This document shows positions 11,118-21,503 of a stretch of 64,000 bases of DNA, piece after piece. Source of the DNA: a virus. Position 1 is the stretch's first letter. Each line of letters starts with the position of its first letter. The DNA is taken from IMG/VR virus record IMGVR_UViG_3300028920_000038, positions 62,001 to 126,000 of that record, one strand, 5' to 3'. The notes under the pieces are model-generated. The model was given only the letters and a program-made list of their open reading frames with translations. It did not search any database and was not told where the DNA came from. The position numbers and the translations under genes are program-made.

Positions 11118-11947
11118 TGGATGATTACAAAATATTTTATTCTTGCAATGCAAGTGAAGGAAAAATGTTAAAGTATTTATTTTATTCTATATTATCTGCT
11201 AGAAAATATATTAATAAAGAAGATGTATTAGTATATCTACACCCACCATATAATAATGAGAATACTGAATTAATAGATAAGATAAAGAAAATATCTAAAG
11301 TTACCAATTTGGATGATTACATTGGAATTCCATATTCTGTCCATCCAAAGTCAGATCCTAATAATAAAAGATATTTTGGAGAAAAATTAAATGTTATAAA
11401 TGTTGATTCTGATATAGTAATAGCATTAGATTGTGATACTTTTATATACAAAGATCCTATTATATTATTAGAAGGAGATTATGACTTTGGTGCAAATGCT
11501 ACAGATTTAACAAAAACTTCTTGGCAATCCAAGAATAATCTTATAGAAATTATGAGAAGAGTATATAAATTTAAACTAAGTGATGAAATACATTTATGGA
11601 ATGGAGGAACTTATATATTTAAAAATAGATCTCATAAGAAGATAGGAAAATATTGGTTAGATATTTTTAATAATGATAGAAATACTCTAGATTATTGTAT
11701 GAAACCAAATAGAAAAGTGTATGATCAAACTGCATTATCAGTAGCCACTGCTAAATACAGATTAAAATTAAAAACATTTTCTGATAAAGTCATATCAGAA
11801 GTAAGAGGAAAAGAAGGAAAATGGTCAAAAGACGATATCCCAGAAGAAAGTGTTATAGTACATGGGAATGGATTAGCAGATGGAATTGGAATGAAAGAAG
11901 AGTTAGATTTATTTTATTGTAAATTGATAGGTGATAGTCATGACTAA
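11117..11947 (+). CDS. Putative GT-A glycosyltransferase (nucleotide-diphospho-sugar transferase-like)
   Basis: A 276-residue protein. KIFYSCNASEGKMLKYL opens the nucleotide-binding half, VIALDCDTFIYKDP holds a clear DxD (Asp-Cys-Asp), and WNGGTYIFKNR followed by YDQTALSVATA is the typical acceptor part of GT8/GT-A-like enzymes. A C-terminal VIVHGNG completes the metal site in related proteins. Start by TAATG overlap with WbqC. Donor and acceptor are unknown. Confidence 0.7.
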   Translation: MDDYKIFYSCNASEGKMLKYLFYSILSARKYINKEDVLVYLHPPYNNENTELIDKIKKISKVTNLDDYIGIPYSVHPKSDPNNKRYFGEKLNVINVDSDIVIALDCDTFIYKDPIILLEGDYDFGANATDLTKTSWQSKNNLIEIMRRVYKFKLSDEIHLWNGGTYIFKNRSHKKIGKYWLDIFNNDRNTLDYCMKPNRKVYDQTALSVATAKYRLKLKTFSDKVISEVRGKEGKWSKDDIPEESVIVHGNGLADGIGMKEELDLFYCKLIGDSHD

Positions 11948-12947
11948 GATATCAGTATTATTAGCAACAAATAGAGTAAATAGGAATGTATTCCCATATA
12001 TACAAAAGTGTGTAGATGGATTAGATTATTTACAAGAAGATACATTTACAGATGAATTCTATGAATTGTGTAATAATACATTATTGAATATACAATACCA
12101 TTTCTTAGAGACTTCTCTTATATCTCTTTCAAATCAAAAATTCAAAGATTTTGAAGTTATTATATCTCATAGATATCCAAAAGATGCAGAGATGATAGTT
12201 AAGGAATATGTAGATAATTATAATGTCCCAATTAGATTAGTGAAAGAGAAGCATTCGGTATGGCATGATTTAGGAGAACAATACCATACAGTAGCTAATA
12301 ATAAGAATACCGCATTCATAAATTCATCTGGTGAATTGATATATCATATAGATGATCTTACATTTTTTAATGAAAATCTTTTACAAGAAGCTTGGGATGA
12401 ATATCAAAATGGTAATTATATGACTGGAAGAACGGTAAGGTGTATAACATATGATAAAAATTTAGAAAACTCGATAGATAAAGTGGGACCTAATAAGATA
12501 CAAATAACTAAGAATGGTTGGACTGGACAAAAGAAACCTTTAACTAACGATAAATACATTCCTATGAATATGTTTTGGACTTGCAGTGCATCTGTATCGG
12601 CAGAGGAATTATTAGAGATAAATGGATATGATGAGTTATATGATGGATCATTAGCTGGAATAGATATGGATGCTGGAAATAGGTTATCACGTATTAGTAA
12701 TTATAATAGAATAGCTAGCGAAAATTACCTATATGAAATAGATGATCCTACACCGAAGAATATGGTTAGAGATGATGTTCTTATGAGAAAGATATTTAGA
12801 GTAAGTCATATAAGAGCTAATTCTTGGAAACCTAAAAAATTTCAGATTAGGAGATATGAGAATTGGCATAAACATACATTAGGAGAATTAGATCCTAATT
12901 GGGATAAATTTATGGACATTCCATTTTATAATATAGAGAGAATATGA
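11940..12947 (+). CDS. Glycosyltransferase family 2-like protein
   Basis: A 335-residue GT-A protein. ISVLLATNRVNRNVFPYI and SLISLSNQKFKDFEVIIS are GT2-like N-terminal elements, FINSSGELIYHIDDLTFF carries the DD metal site, and WTCSASVSAEELLEINGYDELYDGSLAGIDMD is the acceptor/ED-like part. ATG 11940 follows AGGTGA by 5 nt and is preferred to GTG 11931. The last 80 residues are basic and tryptophan-containing and may contact membrane or acceptor. Confidence 0.8.
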   Translation: MTKISVLLATNRVNRNVFPYIQKCVDGLDYLQEDTFTDEFYELCNNTLLNIQYHFLETSLISLSNQKFKDFEVIISHRYPKDAEMIVKEYVDNYNVPIRLVKEKHSVWHDLGEQYHTVANNKNTAFINSSGELIYHIDDLTFFNENLLQEAWDEYQNGNYMTGRTVRCITYDKNLENSIDKVGPNKIQITKNGWTGQKKPLTNDKYIPMNMFWTCSASVSAEELLEINGYDELYDGSLAGIDMDAGNRLSRISNYNRIASENYLYEIDDPTPKNMVRDDVLMRKIFRVSHIRANSWKPKKFQIRRYENWHKHTLGELDPNWDKFMDIPFYNIERI

Positions 12948-14624: not shown

Positions 14625-15838
14625 AACATAAAATAAGGAATGAATGTCTAATATGTAAAAATAAGAATCTTCACAAATTTTTAGAATTAGGGAACATGCC
14701 TCTCCCTAATAAATTTATAGATAAAGAGGAATTTAATAATGAGGAGTTCTATCCATTAAATGTATACGTTTGTGATAAGTGTTTTCTTGTACAATTAAAG
14801 GATATTATAGATCCAAAACTTCTATTTGATGATTATTTGTATATGACAGGAACTTCAAAGCCATTGGTGGATCATTTAAAAACTTTAGCAAAAGATTCTC
14901 TGAAATATCATAAAGATGGTTTAGTTATAGATATAGGATGTAATGATGGAACTCTATTAAAACATTATAAAAAATTAAATTTTAATACTATTGGAATAGA
15001 CCCTGCAAAGAAAATAACAGATATTGGAAAAAAAGAAGGATTAAATATTATAAATGATTATTTTAGTAGTAAGTGTGTAAAAAAAATATTAGAAATGTAT
15101 GGGAAAGCTAATATAATAACAGCAACAAACGTATTTGCACATACAGAAGATATAAAAACTATAATAGAGGGAGTTCGTGATTTATTGACAGAGGATGGAG
15201 TATTTATTATAGAAGTTCATCATTTGATGAATCTTATATTAAATAATGAATTTGATACTATATATCACGAGCATATATCATATTTTAGTTTATCATCTCT
15301 AATTCATCTTTTTAATTTATATGATATGACAATAATAGATGTTAGAGAAATATCTAATCATGGAGGATCATTAAGAGTTTTTATTAAAAAAACTGGAACT
15401 CCTTCAGATAATGTTTTTAAAATAATTGATAAAGAAAAAGAATTAGGTTTGTATTCTTTAGATACATATAATAATTTCTCAGAAAAAGTTAATGATATAA
15501 AAGATGAATTGATTGATACATTAAAAAATTTAAAAGAAAATGGAAATAGAATTACTGGATATGGAGCTACAGCTAAAGGAAATATACTATTAAACTATTG
15601 TAATATTGGTCCTGATATTCTAGATTATATTAGTGATAGAACTCCATTTAAATGTGGGAAATATAGTCCAGGGATGCATATCCCTATAATATCTGAAGAT
15701 AAATTTCATGATGACAATCCAGATTATGTTTTATTATTGGCTTGGAATTATAAGGATAATATATTAATTAAGGAAGATAAATTCAGAAAAAATGGTGGAA
15801 AATTTATAATTCCTATACCTAAACCAGAAATATTATGA
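14621..15838 (+). CDS. Nucleotide-sugar C-methyltransferase
   Basis: A 405-residue protein with the three-part layout of sugar C-methyltransferases such as TylC3 and NovU. The N-terminal zinc domain has CLICKN and later CDKC; the SAM domain has LVIDIGCNDGTLLKHY, then TATNVFAHTED; a long C-terminal part includes YHEHISYFSLSSL (catalytic His/Tyr/Glu region), ITGYGATAKGN and a Rossmann-like domain ending in IPIPKPEIL. These enzymes methylate C3 of 4-keto-6-deoxy sugars, the product of the RmlB encoded just upstream. ATG 14621 overlaps the RmlB stop (ATGA); TTG 14609 is an unlikely start. Confidence 0.88.
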   Translation: MKHKIRNECLICKNKNLHKFLELGNMPLPNKFIDKEEFNNEEFYPLNVYVCDKCFLVQLKDIIDPKLLFDDYLYMTGTSKPLVDHLKTLAKDSLKYHKDGLVIDIGCNDGTLLKHYKKLNFNTIGIDPAKKITDIGKKEGLNIINDYFSSKCVKKILEMYGKANIITATNVFAHTEDIKTIIEGVRDLLTEDGVFIIEVHHLMNLILNNEFDTIYHEHISYFSLSSLIHLFNLYDMTIIDVREISNHGGSLRVFIKKTGTPSDNVFKIIDKEKELGLYSLDTYNNFSEKVNDIKDELIDTLKNLKENGNRITGYGATAKGNILLNYCNIGPDILDYISDRTPFKCGKYSPGMHIPIISEDKFHDDNPDYVLLLAWNYKDNILIKEDKFRKNGGKFIIPIPKPEIL

Positions 15839-16482
15839 TAGTTTATACTTCAATTTTTAATAATAATGATAGATTACCAGAACCATTAATTAAGAATAAA
15901 AATATAGAATATATTTGTTTTACAGATGGGCTCAAAAGAAGCAAAAAATCTATATGGAAAATAAAAACTGTGGATGGAATATACGATGGAACTAGGAATA
16001 ATAGATATTATAAAATAAATTCTCATTTATTTTTTCCATCAGAAGAGATTGTATTATATTTAGATCCAACATTTCTAATAATAAAGGATTTTTATAATAA
16101 AATTGAGGAATGGCTTGGAGATAAAGACATAGCTATTAGACCTCATCCTAAGAGAAAATCTATATATGAAGAAGCTGAATATTTAATAAATAATAAACCA
16201 CATAAGATAGATAGTAAAGAATTAATTATAAAACAAATGAATATGCTTAAAAATGAAGATTATCCTGAATCTGAACCTTTATGTGAAGGAGGATTTATTA
16301 TTAGAAGAAACACTGAACAAGTTAAGAAATTTAATGAGATGTGGTGGAATATAGTAAAGAATTATAGTAAGAGAGATCAATTGAGTTTTAATTATGTATC
16401 ATGGAAATTAGGAATAGGTTATAATTTAATAGAGAGAAAGGAAGTTGAAGAATATACCAGGAGAATAGCATGGCATCCTTAA
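15835..16482 (+). CDS. Glycosyltransferase, TOD1/MUCI70 (DUF616)-like
   Basis: A 215-residue protein. IVYTSIFNNNDRLPEPL, then EYICFTDG, RNNRYYKINSHLFFPSEEIVLYLDPTFLI and the late RDQLSFNYVSWKLGIGYN match the DUF616 pattern (Y-T-x-I-F-G-x-Y-D, C-F-T-D, R-x-x-K, R-D-Q-L-S-F). Such proteins occur in capsule and cell-wall clusters and are treated as GT-A glycosyltransferases. ATGA overlap with the C-methyltransferase, so it may use the branched sugar. Confidence 0.78.
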   Translation: MIVYTSIFNNNDRLPEPLIKNKNIEYICFTDGLKRSKKSIWKIKTVDGIYDGTRNNRYYKINSHLFFPSEEIVLYLDPTFLIIKDFYNKIEEWLGDKDIAIRPHPKRKSIYEEAEYLINNKPHKIDSKELIIKQMNMLKNEDYPESEPLCEGGFIIRRNTEQVKKFNEMWWNIVKNYSKRDQLSFNYVSWKLGIGYNLIERKEVEEYTRRIAWHP

Positions 16483-17210
16483 GAAAGTTAGTAGTATTAA
16501 CTACAGTTGGATTAACAGATTATGTTATAGGAGCATTAGAATCTCTTAAAGAAGAAGAAGCTGATATACTCCTTATAGATGATGGAAGTTCAGTAGATTA
16601 TTCTTATATAATTAATAATTATGAAATAGATTTAATACAAAAGAAAAAAGGTAAAGGAGTTACAGATTCATGGAATATAGCATATAAATTATTTAAAGAT
16701 AATTATGATTATTGTTTATTTTCTAATGATGATGTAATATTCCCAGGAAGAGTACCTCCTGATATGTGGAATGGTTTGGAGAAATATATATTTTTAGGTC
16801 CTTTATCTGATCCTATAGGAAGTGGTAGATTCATGGGTAATTTTCAGAATATTACTACGTATCTTAGAGGAGTAAAAGATTTTAAAGATGTCAAATTAAT
16901 TCAGAATAGATTACAAAAGATACATCCTAATAAAAAGTATCTAGAAATAGGTAAAGATATAGTATTTCAAAGAAAAGAACCTCCATATATTAATGGCTTT
17001 TGTTTTTCTTTTAATAAGGATATAATTGAATATGAATTTCAAAAGGATATTTTATTTAATCCAAAGTATACAAATTCTGGAAATGATAAAGAATTGCAGA
17101 GAGATCGATTAAATAAAGGAAAGGCAATATCTATTAAATCTTATATATTTCACTATAAAGGAGGAACAATAGACCCTTATAGTAATACAAGACAGGAGAT
17201 TATTAATTAA
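16470..17210 (+). CDS. Glycosyltransferase family 2 protein
   Basis: A 246-residue GT2 enzyme. LVVLTTVGLTDYVIGALESL, ADILLIDDGSSVDYSYI and YCLFSNDDVIFPG are the usual strand 1, first Asp pair and DxD-like elements. A later YINGFCFSFNKDI and SGNDKELQRDRLNKGKAISIKS form the acceptor side. AGGAG precedes the ATG by 6 nt. It is the last glycosyltransferase before the phosphonate genes, so it may build the sugar that carries the phosphonate; this is inference from order. Confidence 0.82.
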   Translation: MASLRKLVVLTTVGLTDYVIGALESLKEEEADILLIDDGSSVDYSYIINNYEIDLIQKKKGKGVTDSWNIAYKLFKDNYDYCLFSNDDVIFPGRVPPDMWNGLEKYIFLGPLSDPIGSGRFMGNFQNITTYLRGVKDFKDVKLIQNRLQKIHPNKKYLEIGKDIVFQRKEPPYINGFCFSFNKDIIEYEFQKDILFNPKYTNSGNDKELQRDRLNKGKAISIKSYIFHYKGGTIDPYSNTRQEIIN

Positions 17211-18025
17211 TGATAATAATTACGATAGATGGTTTAAATTGGGATACAGCTAATAAATACTGTAAAGATATATTTGAAAATCAAAATATGAAAAAAATAA
17301 AAAATAATGTTAGATTATTTACAAATACACCAGATTCGGGCCAACCTACTCTTGTCGGTCTTACGTGTCTTTGGAGTGGAGAAAAAATTAGAAACTTTGA
17401 TAAAAATTTATTTGCTAGGGTAAATCCAAAATACAATGAGAATTATAAACTCTCATTTAAAGATAAGAGTGGAAATGATTTTGATTTAATATTTAACTAT
17501 TTTAATAAACCAAAAATTCAACTATCTCATCATGGAGGAAATCCTTATTCAAATAATGAAAAATATTTTAAATACTGGACAACACTAGAACCAAAAGTAA
17601 GAATATGCCCATCTGAAGAATGGTGTATAATACCTGAATTATTAAAGAAAGATTATGATTTTTTTCATATTCATACAGAAATTGGTAAGATAGGAGTATT
17701 ACAACATGGTCCTTACGAACAAGGGAGAATGCCTGCTTGTATTCCTTATGATCAAATAAGACAAGATAAAGAATTAAAAAAAGAAGTATATTTATTTGGT
17801 CTTAAAAGATGGATATTTATTATTAAAGAATATTTATCAAAGATGATTGATGATACAATAATAATAACAGCAGATCATGGAACATCATTAGAAAAAATAT
17901 TCAAACCAGAATACATTGATGACATTCCATTAATAATTAATAGAGATGTAGATTTATCAAATGTGACATATCAATGGGAATTAAAAAATTTTATAGTCGA
18001 TTTAAATGAAAGATATAAAGAATAA
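17210..18025 (+). CDS. Alkaline phosphatase/sulfatase-superfamily enzyme, linked to phosphonate genes
   Basis: A 271-residue protein with the metal-enzyme pattern of the superfamily: IIITIDGLNWDTA at the start (metal Asp), SGQPTLVGLTCLWSGE with a Thr or Ser nucleophile candidate, FFHIHTEIGKIG, and ITADHGTSLE (Asp-His metal ligands). The superfamily includes phosphodiesterases, phosphonoacetate hydrolase and transferases of phosphoethanolamine. It overlaps the phosphonopyruvate decarboxylase gene by 20 nt. It may attach, trim or release the phosphonate group. No signal peptide or membrane span is visible, so it is cytoplasmic and unlike EptA or LtaS. Function within the superfamily is open. 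Confidence 0.7.
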   Translation: MIIITIDGLNWDTANKYCKDIFENQNMKKIKNNVRLFTNTPDSGQPTLVGLTCLWSGEKIRNFDKNLFARVNPKYNENYKLSFKDKSGNDFDLIFNYFNKPKIQLSHHGGNPYSNNEKYFKYWTTLEPKVRICPSEEWCIIPELLKKDYDFFHIHTEIGKIGVLQHGPYEQGRMPACIPYDQIRQDKELKKEVYLFGLKRWIFIIKEYLSKMIDDTIIITADHGTSLEKIFKPEYIDDIPLIINRDVDLSNVTYQWELKNFIVDLNERYKE

Positions 18026-18350
18026 ATTTGGAGTTCCTTGCAGTCAATTGAAAGAGTATTTAGATGGAACTGAAATACCTTGTACTTCTGAAGTTGAAGC
18101 GATGGCAATGGCTGCAGGAGCTTGGTTTGCAGGTAAAAAACCAGAAGTTTATATGCAAAATAGTGGACTAGGACATATAGTGGATATTGTGTCTAGTTTA
18201 TATAAACCTTATAAAATTCCATTACCAAGAATGTATTTGAGTATTAGATTCAAACCAAAACATCATTATGATATGTTTTTATATACTCCTTCTATTCTAT
18301 TATTAATGGAATATGATGATGTTTTTGAGATCATGCAAGATGACAACTAG
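18006..18350 (+). CDS. Phosphonopyruvate decarboxylase alpha subunit (thiamin-diphosphate pyrimidine domain)
   Basis: A 114-residue protein. PCTSEVEAMAMAAGAWFAG contains the Glu (residue 29) that activates the cofactor, and PEVYMQNSGLGHIVD (residues 46-60) is almost diagnostic for phosphonopyruvate and sulfopyruvate decarboxylases. With the beta subunit it converts phosphonopyruvate to phosphonoacetaldehyde and CO2, the step that pulls the unfavourable mutase reaction forward. It is about 50 residues shorter than usual alpha domains; the RFKPKHHYD loop replaces a longer one. Sulfopyruvate decarboxylase is the alternative, but the PEP mutase 1 kb away decides for phosphonate. Confidence 0.85.
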   Translation: MKDIKNKFGVPCSQLKEYLDGTEIPCTSEVEAMAMAAGAWFAGKKPEVYMQNSGLGHIVDIVSSLYKPYKIPLPRMYLSIRFKPKHHYDMFLYTPSILLLMEYDDVFEIMQDDN

Positions 18351-18816
18351 AAAAAAATCTATAGAAAAAATTTTGGAATTAAATCAAAATTCATTAATTA
18401 TATCATCTGCAGGTTATACATCTAGATCCTTATATGAAGTTAAAGATGCTCCAAATCATTTTTATATGATGGGATCAATGGGATGTGCATTACCATTTGC
18501 TATTGGATTAGCTTTAAATACTGATAAGGAAGTGGTAGCTATAATCGGAGATGGAGAATTATTAATGAATTTTAGTTCTCTTATACAAACTGAGAATTTA
18601 AAATTAGATAATTTAACTATTTATATATTAGATAATAATATGTATCAATCAACTGGAGGACAAAAGACTATTAGTGAATATATTCCAAAGTGTGGATTTA
18701 ATGTATGGACTATTAGTATAGAAGATGATCATATACCTCCAAGGATTCCTATAAGTCATAAAGAAATATCGGAGAGATTCTATGAGCACATTAATGGTGT
18801 GCAGCAAATCAACTAA
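18340..18816 (+). CDS. Phosphonopyruvate decarboxylase beta subunit (thiamin-diphosphate binding domain)
   Basis: A 158-residue protein. SAGYTSRSLYEV and FYMMGSMGCALPFAIGLAL (residues ~41-59) match the C-terminal half of phosphonopyruvate decarboxylases, and IIGDGELLMN to LDNN (residues 69-100) is the GDG...NN motif that binds the cofactor with magnesium. The late segment after residue 110 is shortened. ATG 18340 overlaps the alpha gene by 11 nt; an in-frame ATG at 18313 would add residues lying inside the alpha gene. Alpha plus beta total about 272 residues, against roughly 370-400 for one-chain enzymes. Confidence 0.86.
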   Translation: MTTRKKSIEKILELNQNSLIISSAGYTSRSLYEVKDAPNHFYMMGSMGCALPFAIGLALNTDKEVVAIIGDGELLMNFSSLIQTENLKLDNLTIYILDNNMYQSTGGQKTISEYIPKCGFNVWTISIEDDHIPPRIPISHKEISERFYEHINGVQQIN

Positions 18817-19405
18817 AAAATATACTAAACTGTATAATTATGATGAATTATTAATAGTGAAAGAACCTCCAAATAAAGAAACTTTAAAAAAGAAAGATCT
18901 TTATCATAATGTTGTAGCAATAGGAGGAGGAAGTGTCATAGATACAGCTAAGATTTTAAGTATGAATTCAGTGATAGCTATTCCTACTACATATTCTGGA
19001 GCATCTGAGACTTCTCATGCAGTCTATTGGGATAATGGAATGAAATATGATATAGAATGTATTAAACCTATATCTGTTTTGAGAAAAGAATTTATAAATT
19101 TACCTAAACATATTGAAGTAGCTACTAAAATAGATTGCATTTCTCATATTATAGAAAGTTTAATTTCAAAGAATTCTACCATAGATTCTGATAAATACGC
19201 TCTTATAGCTATTAATTTTATAAAAGAAGATAAATGGTTAGAAGCAAGTATATATGCTGGTAAGGCTATTGATATAACTGGTACCAATATTATACATGCT
19301 ATGTCCTATTCATTAACTGGGGTATATGAATTACCTCATGGAGTATCTTTGTTAAAAATATTTGAATTAGCTAAACATTATAAGAAATTAGAGGAATTAT
19401 TATGA
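18782..19405 (+). CDS. Iron-type alcohol dehydrogenase, probable phosphonoacetaldehyde reductase (truncated family member)
   Basis: A 207-residue group III alcohol dehydrogenase. [16 protein letters not shown] (residues ~44-59) binds NAD(P), [15 protein letters not shown] follows, and metal ligands are D118 and H122 ([10 protein letters not shown]), H172 and H186 ([17 protein letters not shown]). Family members have about 380 residues; here the N-terminal domain is trimmed and about 100 C-terminal residues are absent, yet every ligand remains. PhpC/FrbD-type enzymes of this family reduce phosphonoacetaldehyde to 2-hydroxyethylphosphonate. GGAGAG lies 5 nt before the ATG, and the gene overlaps the decarboxylase beta gene by 35 nt. 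Confidence 0.83.
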
Positions 19406-20673
19406 AAACCGTTTATGTAGGAATGTCAGCCGATTTTATTCATGATGGTCATATAAATATAATAAATATTGCTAGAAATTATGGTAATATAATAATAGGA
19501 CTATTAACTGATGAAGCTATAGCATCATATAAAAGAGTACCTTTATTGTCTTACGAAAAAAGGAAAAAGATATTAGAGAATATAAAATATGTATATAAAG
19601 TAGTGCCACAGAAAACATTAGATTATACCGATAATCTTAAGAAATATAAACCAAATTACGTTGTACATGGAGATGATTGGAAAAAAGGAATACAAAAAGA
19701 AATAAGAAATAAAGTTATAGAAACTTTAAAAGAATGGAATGGAGAATTAATTGAACCTGAATATACAAAAGGTATATCATCTACATTACTTATAAACGAT
19801 AAATTAAATCAAGGAGTTACACCTAATTATAGAAGAGGTAAATTGAAAAAGCTTCTAGAATTAAAGTCATACATAAGAATATTAGAAGCTCATAGTGGTA
19901 TATCTGGTATAGTTGTAGAAAGATCTAATTATAATGGAAAAGAATTTGACGGGATATGGATATCAAGTTTGACAGATTCTACTTCTAAAGGAAAACCAGA
20001 CATAGAAATAGTAGATTTTACATCAAGAATACAAACCATTAATGAGATATTAGAAGTAACCACTAAACCTATTATAGTAGATATTGATACAGGAGGTCAA
20101 ATAGATCATTTTGTATATATGATAAAAACCTTAGAAAGACTAGGAGTATCTGCAATTATAGTAGAAGATAAAACATTTCCTAAAAGGAATTCACTGTCAG
20201 AAGGAGAAATTCACATACAAGAAGATAAAGAGACATTTTGTAGAAAGATAAGAGCTGGAATACAATCTAGAATAACAGATGATTTTATGATAATAGCTAG
20301 AATAGAATCATTTATAACCGGAGAAGAAGTTGATCTTGCATTAAATAGAGCTAAAGACTACATAGAAGCTGGTGCAGATGGTATTATGATACATAGTAAA
20401 AAGAGTAATCCCAAAGATTTAATATTATTTTGTGATGAATATAAGAAATTTAAAAATAGAGTTCCATTAATTTTAGTTCCTACTACATATAATTGGATGA
20501 AAGAAGAAGAGTTAAATTCTTTAGGTGCTAATATTATTATATATGCTAATCATCTATTAAGATCATCATATAAATCTATGAAAGAAGTAGCTAAAGAAAT
20601 ATTAAAAAATGAAAGAAGTTTAGAAGTAAATGATATGTGTACAAGTGTTAAGGAGATATTAGAATTAATATGA
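19402..20673 (+). CDS. Bifunctional cytidylyltransferase / phosphoenolpyruvate mutase
   Basis: A 423-residue fusion. Residues 1-135 form a TagD-like cytidylyltransferase: [18 protein letters not shown] with HDGH at 14-17, NYVVHGDDW, and the late TKGISSTLL. Residues ~150-423 form phosphoenolpyruvate mutase: [25 protein letters not shown]200 (the DNN-type catalytic Asp position), VDIDTGG, the diagnostic [10 protein letters not shown] (255-264), [20 protein letters not shown] and YANHLLRSS. The mutase makes the C-P bond by turning PEP into phosphonopyruvate; the fused domain would activate the final phosphonate with CTP. Such fusions are known in bacterial phosphonate clusters. ATGA overlap and GAGG upstream. 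Confidence 0.93.
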
Positions 20674-21503
20674 TAATTGGTATAATAGGATTCGGAATGG
20701 TTGGTAGAGCAATACATCATGGTTTTGCTCAAATATGTGATTTTAAAATTTATGATAAAGATAAGAAATTATCAGAAAATACATTAAAAGAAACTTTAGT
20801 AAATAGTGATTTTATATTTATATGTGTGCCTACTCCAATGAAAAAAGAAAATGGAGAAATAGATTTAAAATCTTTAGATAGTACATTGTCTTACGCTAAT
20901 AAATATATACCAAGAGAAGATAAAATATTGATTATTAAATCAACAATAGTTCCAGGTACTACAGATAGTTATATAAAAAAATATCCAAATCTAAATATTA
21001 TATTTAATCCAGAATTTCTAACAGCTCGTACATCTAAATTGGATTTTATTAATTCGTCTAGAGTCATATTGGGAGGGGATCCTAAATTAACCAGTAGAGT
21101 AGCAGATTTATATGGAAAAAGATTTACACATACTCCTATTTATCTAACAGACGCAAGAACAGCTGAATTAGTTAAATATACAGCTAATTGTTTCTTTGCG
21201 ACTAAGGTTTCGTTTTTTAACGAAATTTTTGATATATGCCGAAAGTTAGATATAAGATATGAAGATGTAAGAGATATGACATTAGCGGATGGGAGAATAG
21301 GCAATTCTCATACAGATGTTCCAGGTCATGACGGTTTAAGGGGATTTGGTGGATTATGCTTTCCAAAGGACCTTAATTCTATGATATACAAAGCTGAAGA
21401 ATTAGGTGTAGATCCTAAAGTTATGAAAGCTGTATGGGAAAAAAACATTGAAGTAAGAGAAAAGAAAGATTGGGAGAAAATCGAAGGTGCGGTCTCAGAT
21501 TAA
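20670..21503 (+). CDS. Short UDP-glucose/nucleotide-sugar dehydrogenase
   Basis: A 277-residue protein of the UDP-glucose 6-dehydrogenase family, which oxidises UDP-glucose to UDP-glucuronate with two NAD. Seen: [53 protein letters not shown], and [14 protein letters not shown] with the catalytic Cys. Cellular enzymes have about 390-450 residues with a second Rossmann domain; here the chain ends soon after the catalytic Cys and a dimerisation helix, so the C-terminal UDP-binding domain is missing. The end overlaps the GalU-like gene. Confidence 0.87.

Follow-up and report, generated by a model that had tools for sequence, protein, structure and literature searches.

We found that the plus strand of the window, that is, the whole 64,000-nucleotide stretch of virus DNA analyzed here (bases 62,001-126,000 of a 137,847-base IMG/VR virus record, G000), encodes at 17210-18025, from an ATG start, a compact 271-aa protein of the alkaline phosphatase superfamily, labeled AP1 in this report. 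AP1 looks like a cytosolic, one-metal, Thr-nucleophile enzyme and not like a phosphonoacetate hydrolase, NPP, cofactor-independent phosphoglycerate mutase (iPGM), or sulfatase, and it probably works as a one-metal Thr-nucleophile enzyme of a glycan island. The best overall explanation, proposed here tentatively, is a cytosolic one-metal member of the superfamily acting in the glycan-building island of the virus. Transfer of a phospho- or phosphonyl group is the best single guess for its reaction, held as a working assumption somewhat short of probable.

The AP1 gene is embedded in a single same-strand gene run because both of its ends overlap neighboring genes: the ATG overlaps the stop codon of the upstream glycosyltransferase gene (TAATG at 17208-17212), and the 3' end overlaps the gene for the alpha half of a decarboxylase (18006-18350) by 20 nt. 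Matches to sigma-70 promoters in the island were fewer than expected from shuffling. The ORF is genuine and not a chance reading frame, as indicated by its homologues (44-51% identity to the window protein, four distinct sequences), by dN values far below dS, and by a Foldseek match of the structure model at an E value of 7e-6. For the closest AP1 pair (G001 and G019), dN was 0.19 and dS was 1.68, and dN was below dS in every pair with a computable dS, most dS values being near saturation. These results indicate that AP1 is under purifying selection.

The only records found to carry close relatives of AP1 were five from sister viruses. Queried alone, the protein matched nothing among viral contigs, phages, or PDB sequences. 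A search with the PEP mutase revealed a sister virus of 144.5 kb (G001), in which an AP1 homologue lies directly after the PEP mutase gene, and a search with the major capsid protein (MCP) led to 28 related contigs. A profile search of the MCP-related records then identified AP1 in G001, G010, G019, G020, and G028. Since G019 and G020 are nearly identical (99.6% over the compared 12.4-kb island stretch, with identical AP1), these five records hold four distinct homologues; pairwise identities are 43-75%. Outside the virus group, no close relatives were found by tblastn in phages or plasmids, and none in prokaryote contigs by pattern scans, which reach close relatives only; PDB sequence searches gave nothing or chance matches only. 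Four contigs from a DNA-pattern scan for GPYExGR[MLI]P (L054, L055, L056, and L058) were rejected as AP1 carriers by the profile. In G010, AP1 would start with TTG, and an ORF resembling a homing (HNH-type) endonuclease (L045:1193-1783) lies between the glycosyltransferase and AP1.

An AlphaFold2 model of AP1 built from a five-sequence alignment reached a pLDDT of 71.5 and a pTM of 0.77 (pLDDT 35 when folded from the single sequence); the surroundings of the DHG loop and residues 164-176 are weak spots, with moderate confidence around T47 and the DHG loop. The best Foldseek matches of this model were the MCR-1/MCR-2 phosphoethanolamine transferases (E values of 7e-6 to 4e-5, the former for MCR-1/EptA), followed by LtaP, phosphonate monoester hydrolase (2w8s, 2.2e-4), BcsG, sulfatases, and iPGM; phosphonoacetate hydrolase (1ei6) matched at 0.011. 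VIA-align gave Z scores of 13.5-14.6 over 200-230 residues, tied among transferases (14.6 for EptC), sulfatases, NPPs, and iPGM. In BFVD, the two clear fold matches were a Hyperionvirus protein and protein 29 of the archaeal tailed virus HHTV-1. Membership in the alkaline phosphatase superfamily, as proposed in the sequence-only reading, is thus secure at the level of the predicted core fold, but the subfamily is not, because the VIA Z scores of transferases, sulfatases, NPPs, and iPGM are alike. The structure comparison suggested there was thereby carried out, with EptA/MCR-1 ranking first by Foldseek.

No Pfam or NCBIfam model reached its cut-off for AP1: the NPP/type I phosphodiesterase family (PF01663) scored 12.9 bits against a cut-off of 23, and the sulfatase family (PF00884), which also covers EptA/LtaS, scored 15.1 bits against 25, leaving sub-cut-off similarity to Phosphodiest (0.017-0.085) and Sulfatase (0.014). 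Profile-profile comparison with EptA, EptB, and EptC gave nothing significant, and AP1 matched no LicD model (PF04991). A fixed unrelated function such as that of iPGM, named earlier as the outcome that would overturn the reading, did not emerge: no iPGM model matched at an E value of 1, and AP1 has 271 aa compared with about 504-509 aa in solved iPGMs. An assignment to the sulfatases was rejected as well, as all homologues have Thr where sulfatases carry the Cys or Ser that becomes formylglycine, and PF00884 stayed below its cut-off.

The following codons of AP1 specify the putative active site:

17228-17230, plus strand: D7, proposed metal ligand at the position of MCR-1 Glu246; invariant in the alignment, placed by motif comparison with MCR-1 (PMC5216409)
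17348-17350, plus strand: T47, proposed nucleophile, which the model places at the start of helix 46-56; conserved when read gap-free
17672-17674, plus strand: H155, invariant, at the end of strand 151-157 (alignment and model)
17687-17689, plus strand: K160, invariant in the alignment; possible basic replacement for the missing second metal
17873-17878, plus strand: D222 and H223, proposed metal ligands at the positions of MCR-1 Asp465 and His466 (alignment and motif comparison)

D7, T47, D222, and H223 are kept in all four distinct homologues. The elements pointed out earlier, namely the 20-nt overlap, the IDG (D7) and TADHG (D222, H223) motifs, and a Thr/Ser nucleophile region, are present, with a Thr (T47) at the nucleophile position, and the motifs and this Thr are conserved in the four homologues. 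In the model, D7 is at the end of strand 1, and D222-H223 follow strand 216-219. MAFFT placed a gap beside T47 in two sequences, but all AP1 sequences read gap-free as T-x-x-G-L-x-C-x-W-[ST]-G at this site, and a low-scoring local hhalign alignment of AP1 with EptA covers just this segment, pairing GQPTLVGLTCLWS with GTATAVSVPCMFS. In MCR-1, Zn1 is coordinated by Asp465, His466, Glu246, and the nucleophile Thr285, and basic residues can replace the second metal in one-metal members (PMC5216409). By order and motif, D7/T47/D222/H223 appear to line up with this single zinc site (E246, T285, D465, and H466).

The D-x3-H pair that binds a second metal is absent in four of the five AP1 sequences, and that of G028 (DRNMH, 64) lies in another region; counting back from the GP motif, the invariant H155 and K160 would lie where second-metal ligands are expected. 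On account of the missing pair, placement of AP1 in the NPP/phosphonoacetate hydrolase group was rejected. No membrane anchor was found, in agreement with the sequence-only reading (maximum 19-residue Kyte-Doolittle mean of 0.96), and AP1 starts at the first core strand, lacking the membrane-anchored N-terminal domain of the EptA/MCR type. The kept quartet, the absent D-x3-H pair, and the absent membrane segment together suggest a cytosolic one-metal Thr-nucleophile enzyme.

Half of the canonical metal ligands are lost in AP1, which would also suit a non-catalytic binding protein with a retained fold. This alternative is highly improbable given that the D, T, D, H quartet is kept at 43-75% pairwise identity, with dN well below dS. 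A hydrolase deserves more weight, although we regard it as somewhat unlikely: AP1 would be a phosphodiesterase or phosphatase acting on a nucleotide sugar or a glycan precursor, from which it strips a phosphate or nucleotide, with water resolving the Thr intermediate. The weak Pfam similarity of AP1 is to phosphodiesterase and sulfatase families, HHTV-1 protein 29, a viral relative by fold, is named a phosphodiesterase in UniProt, AP1 is soluble, unlike EptA or LtaS, and the AP1 islands are diverse in content. However, the second metal, which activates water in two-metal members, is without ligands in AP1, and the D-x3-H pair kept in HHTV-1 protein 29 (DAYGH) is lost.

The island around AP1 contains glycosyltransferase genes and a phosphonate cassette:

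11931-12947, plus strand: glycosyltransferase-2-like protein, shared by most sister islands whether or not they carry AP1 (island comparison)
15835-16482, plus strand: TOD1/MUCI70-like glycosyltransferase (PF04765, 4e-19), whose orthologue precedes AP1 in G010
16470-17210, plus strand: family-2 glycosyltransferase (PF00535, 1.1e-5), whose orthologue (60%) precedes AP1 in G010
18006-18350, plus strand: phosphonopyruvate decarboxylase, alpha half (NCBIfam TIGR03297, E value of 8.9e-15, below cut-off)
18313-18816, plus strand: phosphonopyruvate decarboxylase, beta half (TIGR03846, E value of 8e-35, and TIGR03297, 4.5e-30, both below cut-off; PF02775, 1.4e-17)
18782-19405, plus strand: half-length iron alcohol dehydrogenase, presumed phosphonoacetaldehyde reductase (PF25137, 1e-10; TIGR03405, 1.7e-16, below cut-off)
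19402-20673, plus strand: cytidylyltransferase fused to PEP mutase (TIGR02320, 6.6e-110, over cut-off; PF01467, 2.2e-16)
20670-21503, plus strand: UDP-glucose 6-dehydrogenase-like protein, named from motifs and present in every AP1-bearing record

The cassette contains both the PEP mutase motif EDKxxxxxNS and the cytidylyltransferase fusion, and its genes for Ppd-alpha, Ppd-beta, Fe-ADH, and CTP-PepM (18006-20673) fit a route to CMP-2-hydroxyethylphosphonate, following the pathway logic in PMC6697681. It is common to the window virus, G001, and a marine contig (L003). The iron alcohol dehydrogenase is about half the usual length and yet conserved (207 aa in the window virus and G001, 258 aa in L003).

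In each of the two PEP-mutase-bearing sister viruses (2/2), AP1 directly adjoins the cassette, on opposite sides: it lies before Ppd in the window and after PepM in G001. In the window it belongs to a block of TOD1-type glycosyltransferase, GT2, and AP1 common to G010, and in G001 to a block of AP1, methyltransferase, epimerase, and GHMP kinase common to G019/G020. Sulfotransferase-domain proteins occur in the islands of G001 (just before the decarboxylase), G010, and G020, with an APS kinase in G010 as well, and sulfatases are among the tied fold matches of AP1; these findings would suit a sulfatase-like or sulfuryl-transfer enzyme. That AP1 handles sulfate is nonetheless very improbable, considering the Thr at the formylglycine-precursor position in all homologues and that no sulfotransferase was noticed in the window's island. 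In G010, genes for a sulfotransferase, an APS kinase, a cytidylyltransferase, and an MFS transporter stand in a row after AP1 (L045:2795-5665), and one may guess at a likeness to an O-methyl phosphoramidate or sulfated-glycan cassette.

The occurrence of AP1 matches that of UDP-glucose dehydrogenase better than that of PEP mutase. Among seven non-duplicate, larger MCP-family records (small numbers, chosen after the fact), the viral UDP-glucose dehydrogenase was present in 5/5 records with AP1 and 0/2 without (Fisher p of 0.048), and the same test for PEP mutase gave p = 1. PEP mutase was not found in the AP1-bearing G010, G019, G020, and G028, records that may be fragments, although G020 and G028 extend to 115 kb. 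The coupling to phosphonate genes proposed in the sequence-only reading is therefore seen in the window virus and in G001, whereas AP1 occurs without PEP mutase in four further records. A narrower reading, in which AP1 belongs with the phosphonate cassette as specifically the missing CMP-phosphonate transferase, draws on its position next to the cassette in the two PEP-mutase viruses and on the lack of another recognized transferase in G000 and G001. We consider it quite improbable and reject it as the main claim because PEP-mutase-free records carry AP1; moreover, AP1 lies in different neighbor blocks in the window virus and G001, and its identity between them is 46%, compared with 51-66% for the cassette proteins.

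With the phosphonate-only role set aside, a broader transferase role was suggested by the other genes of these loci. LicD (PF04991), CDP-alcohol (PF01066), and TagF-type (PF04464) transferases were not found in the whole 137,847-base G000 record, extending the earlier remark that no LicD-type CDP-alcohol transferase is visible, nor in G001 and G010. The marine contig L003 and a gut contig (L005) have PEP mutase, no AP1 match, and TagF-type PF04464 genes in their PEP-mutase loci:

L003:2296-3144: TagF-type PF04464 protein
L005:1114-3213: TagF-type PF04464 protein fused to a YidC-like domain

These two proteins are candidates for the phosphonyl transferase there. Because AP1 and these transferase families are complementary across these loci, AP1 as a transferase for CMP/CDP-activated groups is favored, but G028 carries a LicD protein of its own, and G019/G020 have no PF01467 enzyme. 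A PF01467 cytidylyltransferase was found in 3/6 AP1 records, near AP1 in G010, and in 0/6 of the AP1-less MCP-family records tested; no phospho-alcohol activating enzyme was recognized near AP1 in G019/G020. Other candidates for the transfer step are the glycosyltransferase-like proteins of unknown function and, in G001, the sulfotransferase-fold protein. As to the functions first proposed, TagF complementarity argues for a new transferase, the PEP-mutase-free records argue against a phosphonate-specific role, and a phosphonate-ester hydrolase like phosphonoacetate hydrolase is disfavored because second-metal ligands are missing.

In the proposed mechanism, D7, D222, and H223 would hold one metal that activates T47, as in MCR-1/EptA, and the invariant basic residues H155, K160, and R173 would stand in for the second metal. 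T47 might attack an activated donor at its phosphorus to give a covalent intermediate, Thr-phospho or Thr-phosphonyl, from which the group would pass to a glycan hydroxyl. The donor would be CMP-2-hydroxyethylphosphonate in the window virus and G001, and in G010 whatever its PF01467 cytidylyltransferase activates. That AP1 moves CMP-phosphonate in this virus is conceivable but doubtful. AP1 occurs in glycan islands whether or not these include phosphonate genes, and it might found a family of soluble one-metal alkaline-phosphatase-fold transferases that act in the cytosol and attach CMP-/CDP-activated phosphonates and phospho-alcohols to glycans, a generalization that we rate as rather unlikely.

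A second AP1-like protein of 315 aa is encoded outside the window (G000:C1:58,519-59,466; L090:14520-15467), with 20-26% identity to AP1 in alignment and an E value of 0.0006 for its G020 orthologue with the AP1 profile. This alkaline-phosphatase-fold-like protein looks like a core virus gene by its distribution, because it is present with or without AP1 (G000, G001, G006, G020, G025, and G028). Its gene lies directly 3' of that for a small protein with a CDAGISRS tyrosine-phosphatase-like motif (L090:14098-14523). The virus encodes an archaeal/eukaryotic-type primase large subunit domain and a family-B polymerase, which, with the HHTV-1 fold match, suggests an archaeal host. Apparent intein-like insertions were seen in the UDP-glucose dehydrogenase of G028 (L044:14935-16848) and the ribonucleotide reductase of G020 (L046:2329-4533).

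To our knowledge, the alkaline phosphatase fold is not known to fill the transfer step of phosphonoglycan synthesis. The attachment of CMP-activated phosphonates to glycans is a poorly assigned step, and Rice et al. (2019; PMC6697681) call the tailoring steps after the mutase enigmatic. A soluble alkaline-phosphatase-fold transferase, if confirmed, would be a new solution to this step and a marker for phosphonoglycan islands. Even as a hydrolase, AP1 would represent a small uncharacterized branch of a major superfamily in viruses probably infecting archaea.

Among known systems, Borgs, which are archaeal extrachromosomal elements and not this virus, are reported to carry glycoconjugate islands in which sugar genes are accompanied by a PEP mutase-cytidylyltransferase fusion like that of the window (PMC12660748); the main text of that paper mentions neither "alkaline phosphatase" nor "sulfatase". 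Since comparable islands are reported from Borgs, the mere presence of phosphonate genes on mobile elements of archaea is not new; what is new is a compact, soluble, one-metal branch, of which no described member was found here. LicD, TagF-type, and CDP-alcohol transferases would share the pathway step if AP1 is a transferase, but their folds are unrelated, and none was found in the window's virus. Phosphonate monoester hydrolase and phosphonoacetate hydrolase share the superfamily fold with AP1, but their chains are longer (512 and 404 aa, compared with 271 aa), and phosphonoacetate hydrolase has a two-metal site that AP1 lacks. HHTV-1 protein 29 (equated with HHTV1_29 because of its 249-aa length) comes from an archaeal tailed virus and is, like AP1, compact, soluble, and of this fold, but it keeps the D-x3-H second-metal motif, lies among morphogenesis genes and not in a glycan island, and has no sequence match to AP1. 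EptA is membrane-anchored and extracytoplasmic and uses a phospholipid donor, whereas AP1 is soluble, has about 270 aa, and shows no detectable sequence homology to it above noise; nevertheless, EptA, EptC, and MCR-1 resemble AP1 in the fold, in the one-metal D(E)/T/D/H pattern, and in having the nucleophile Thr where a helix begins.
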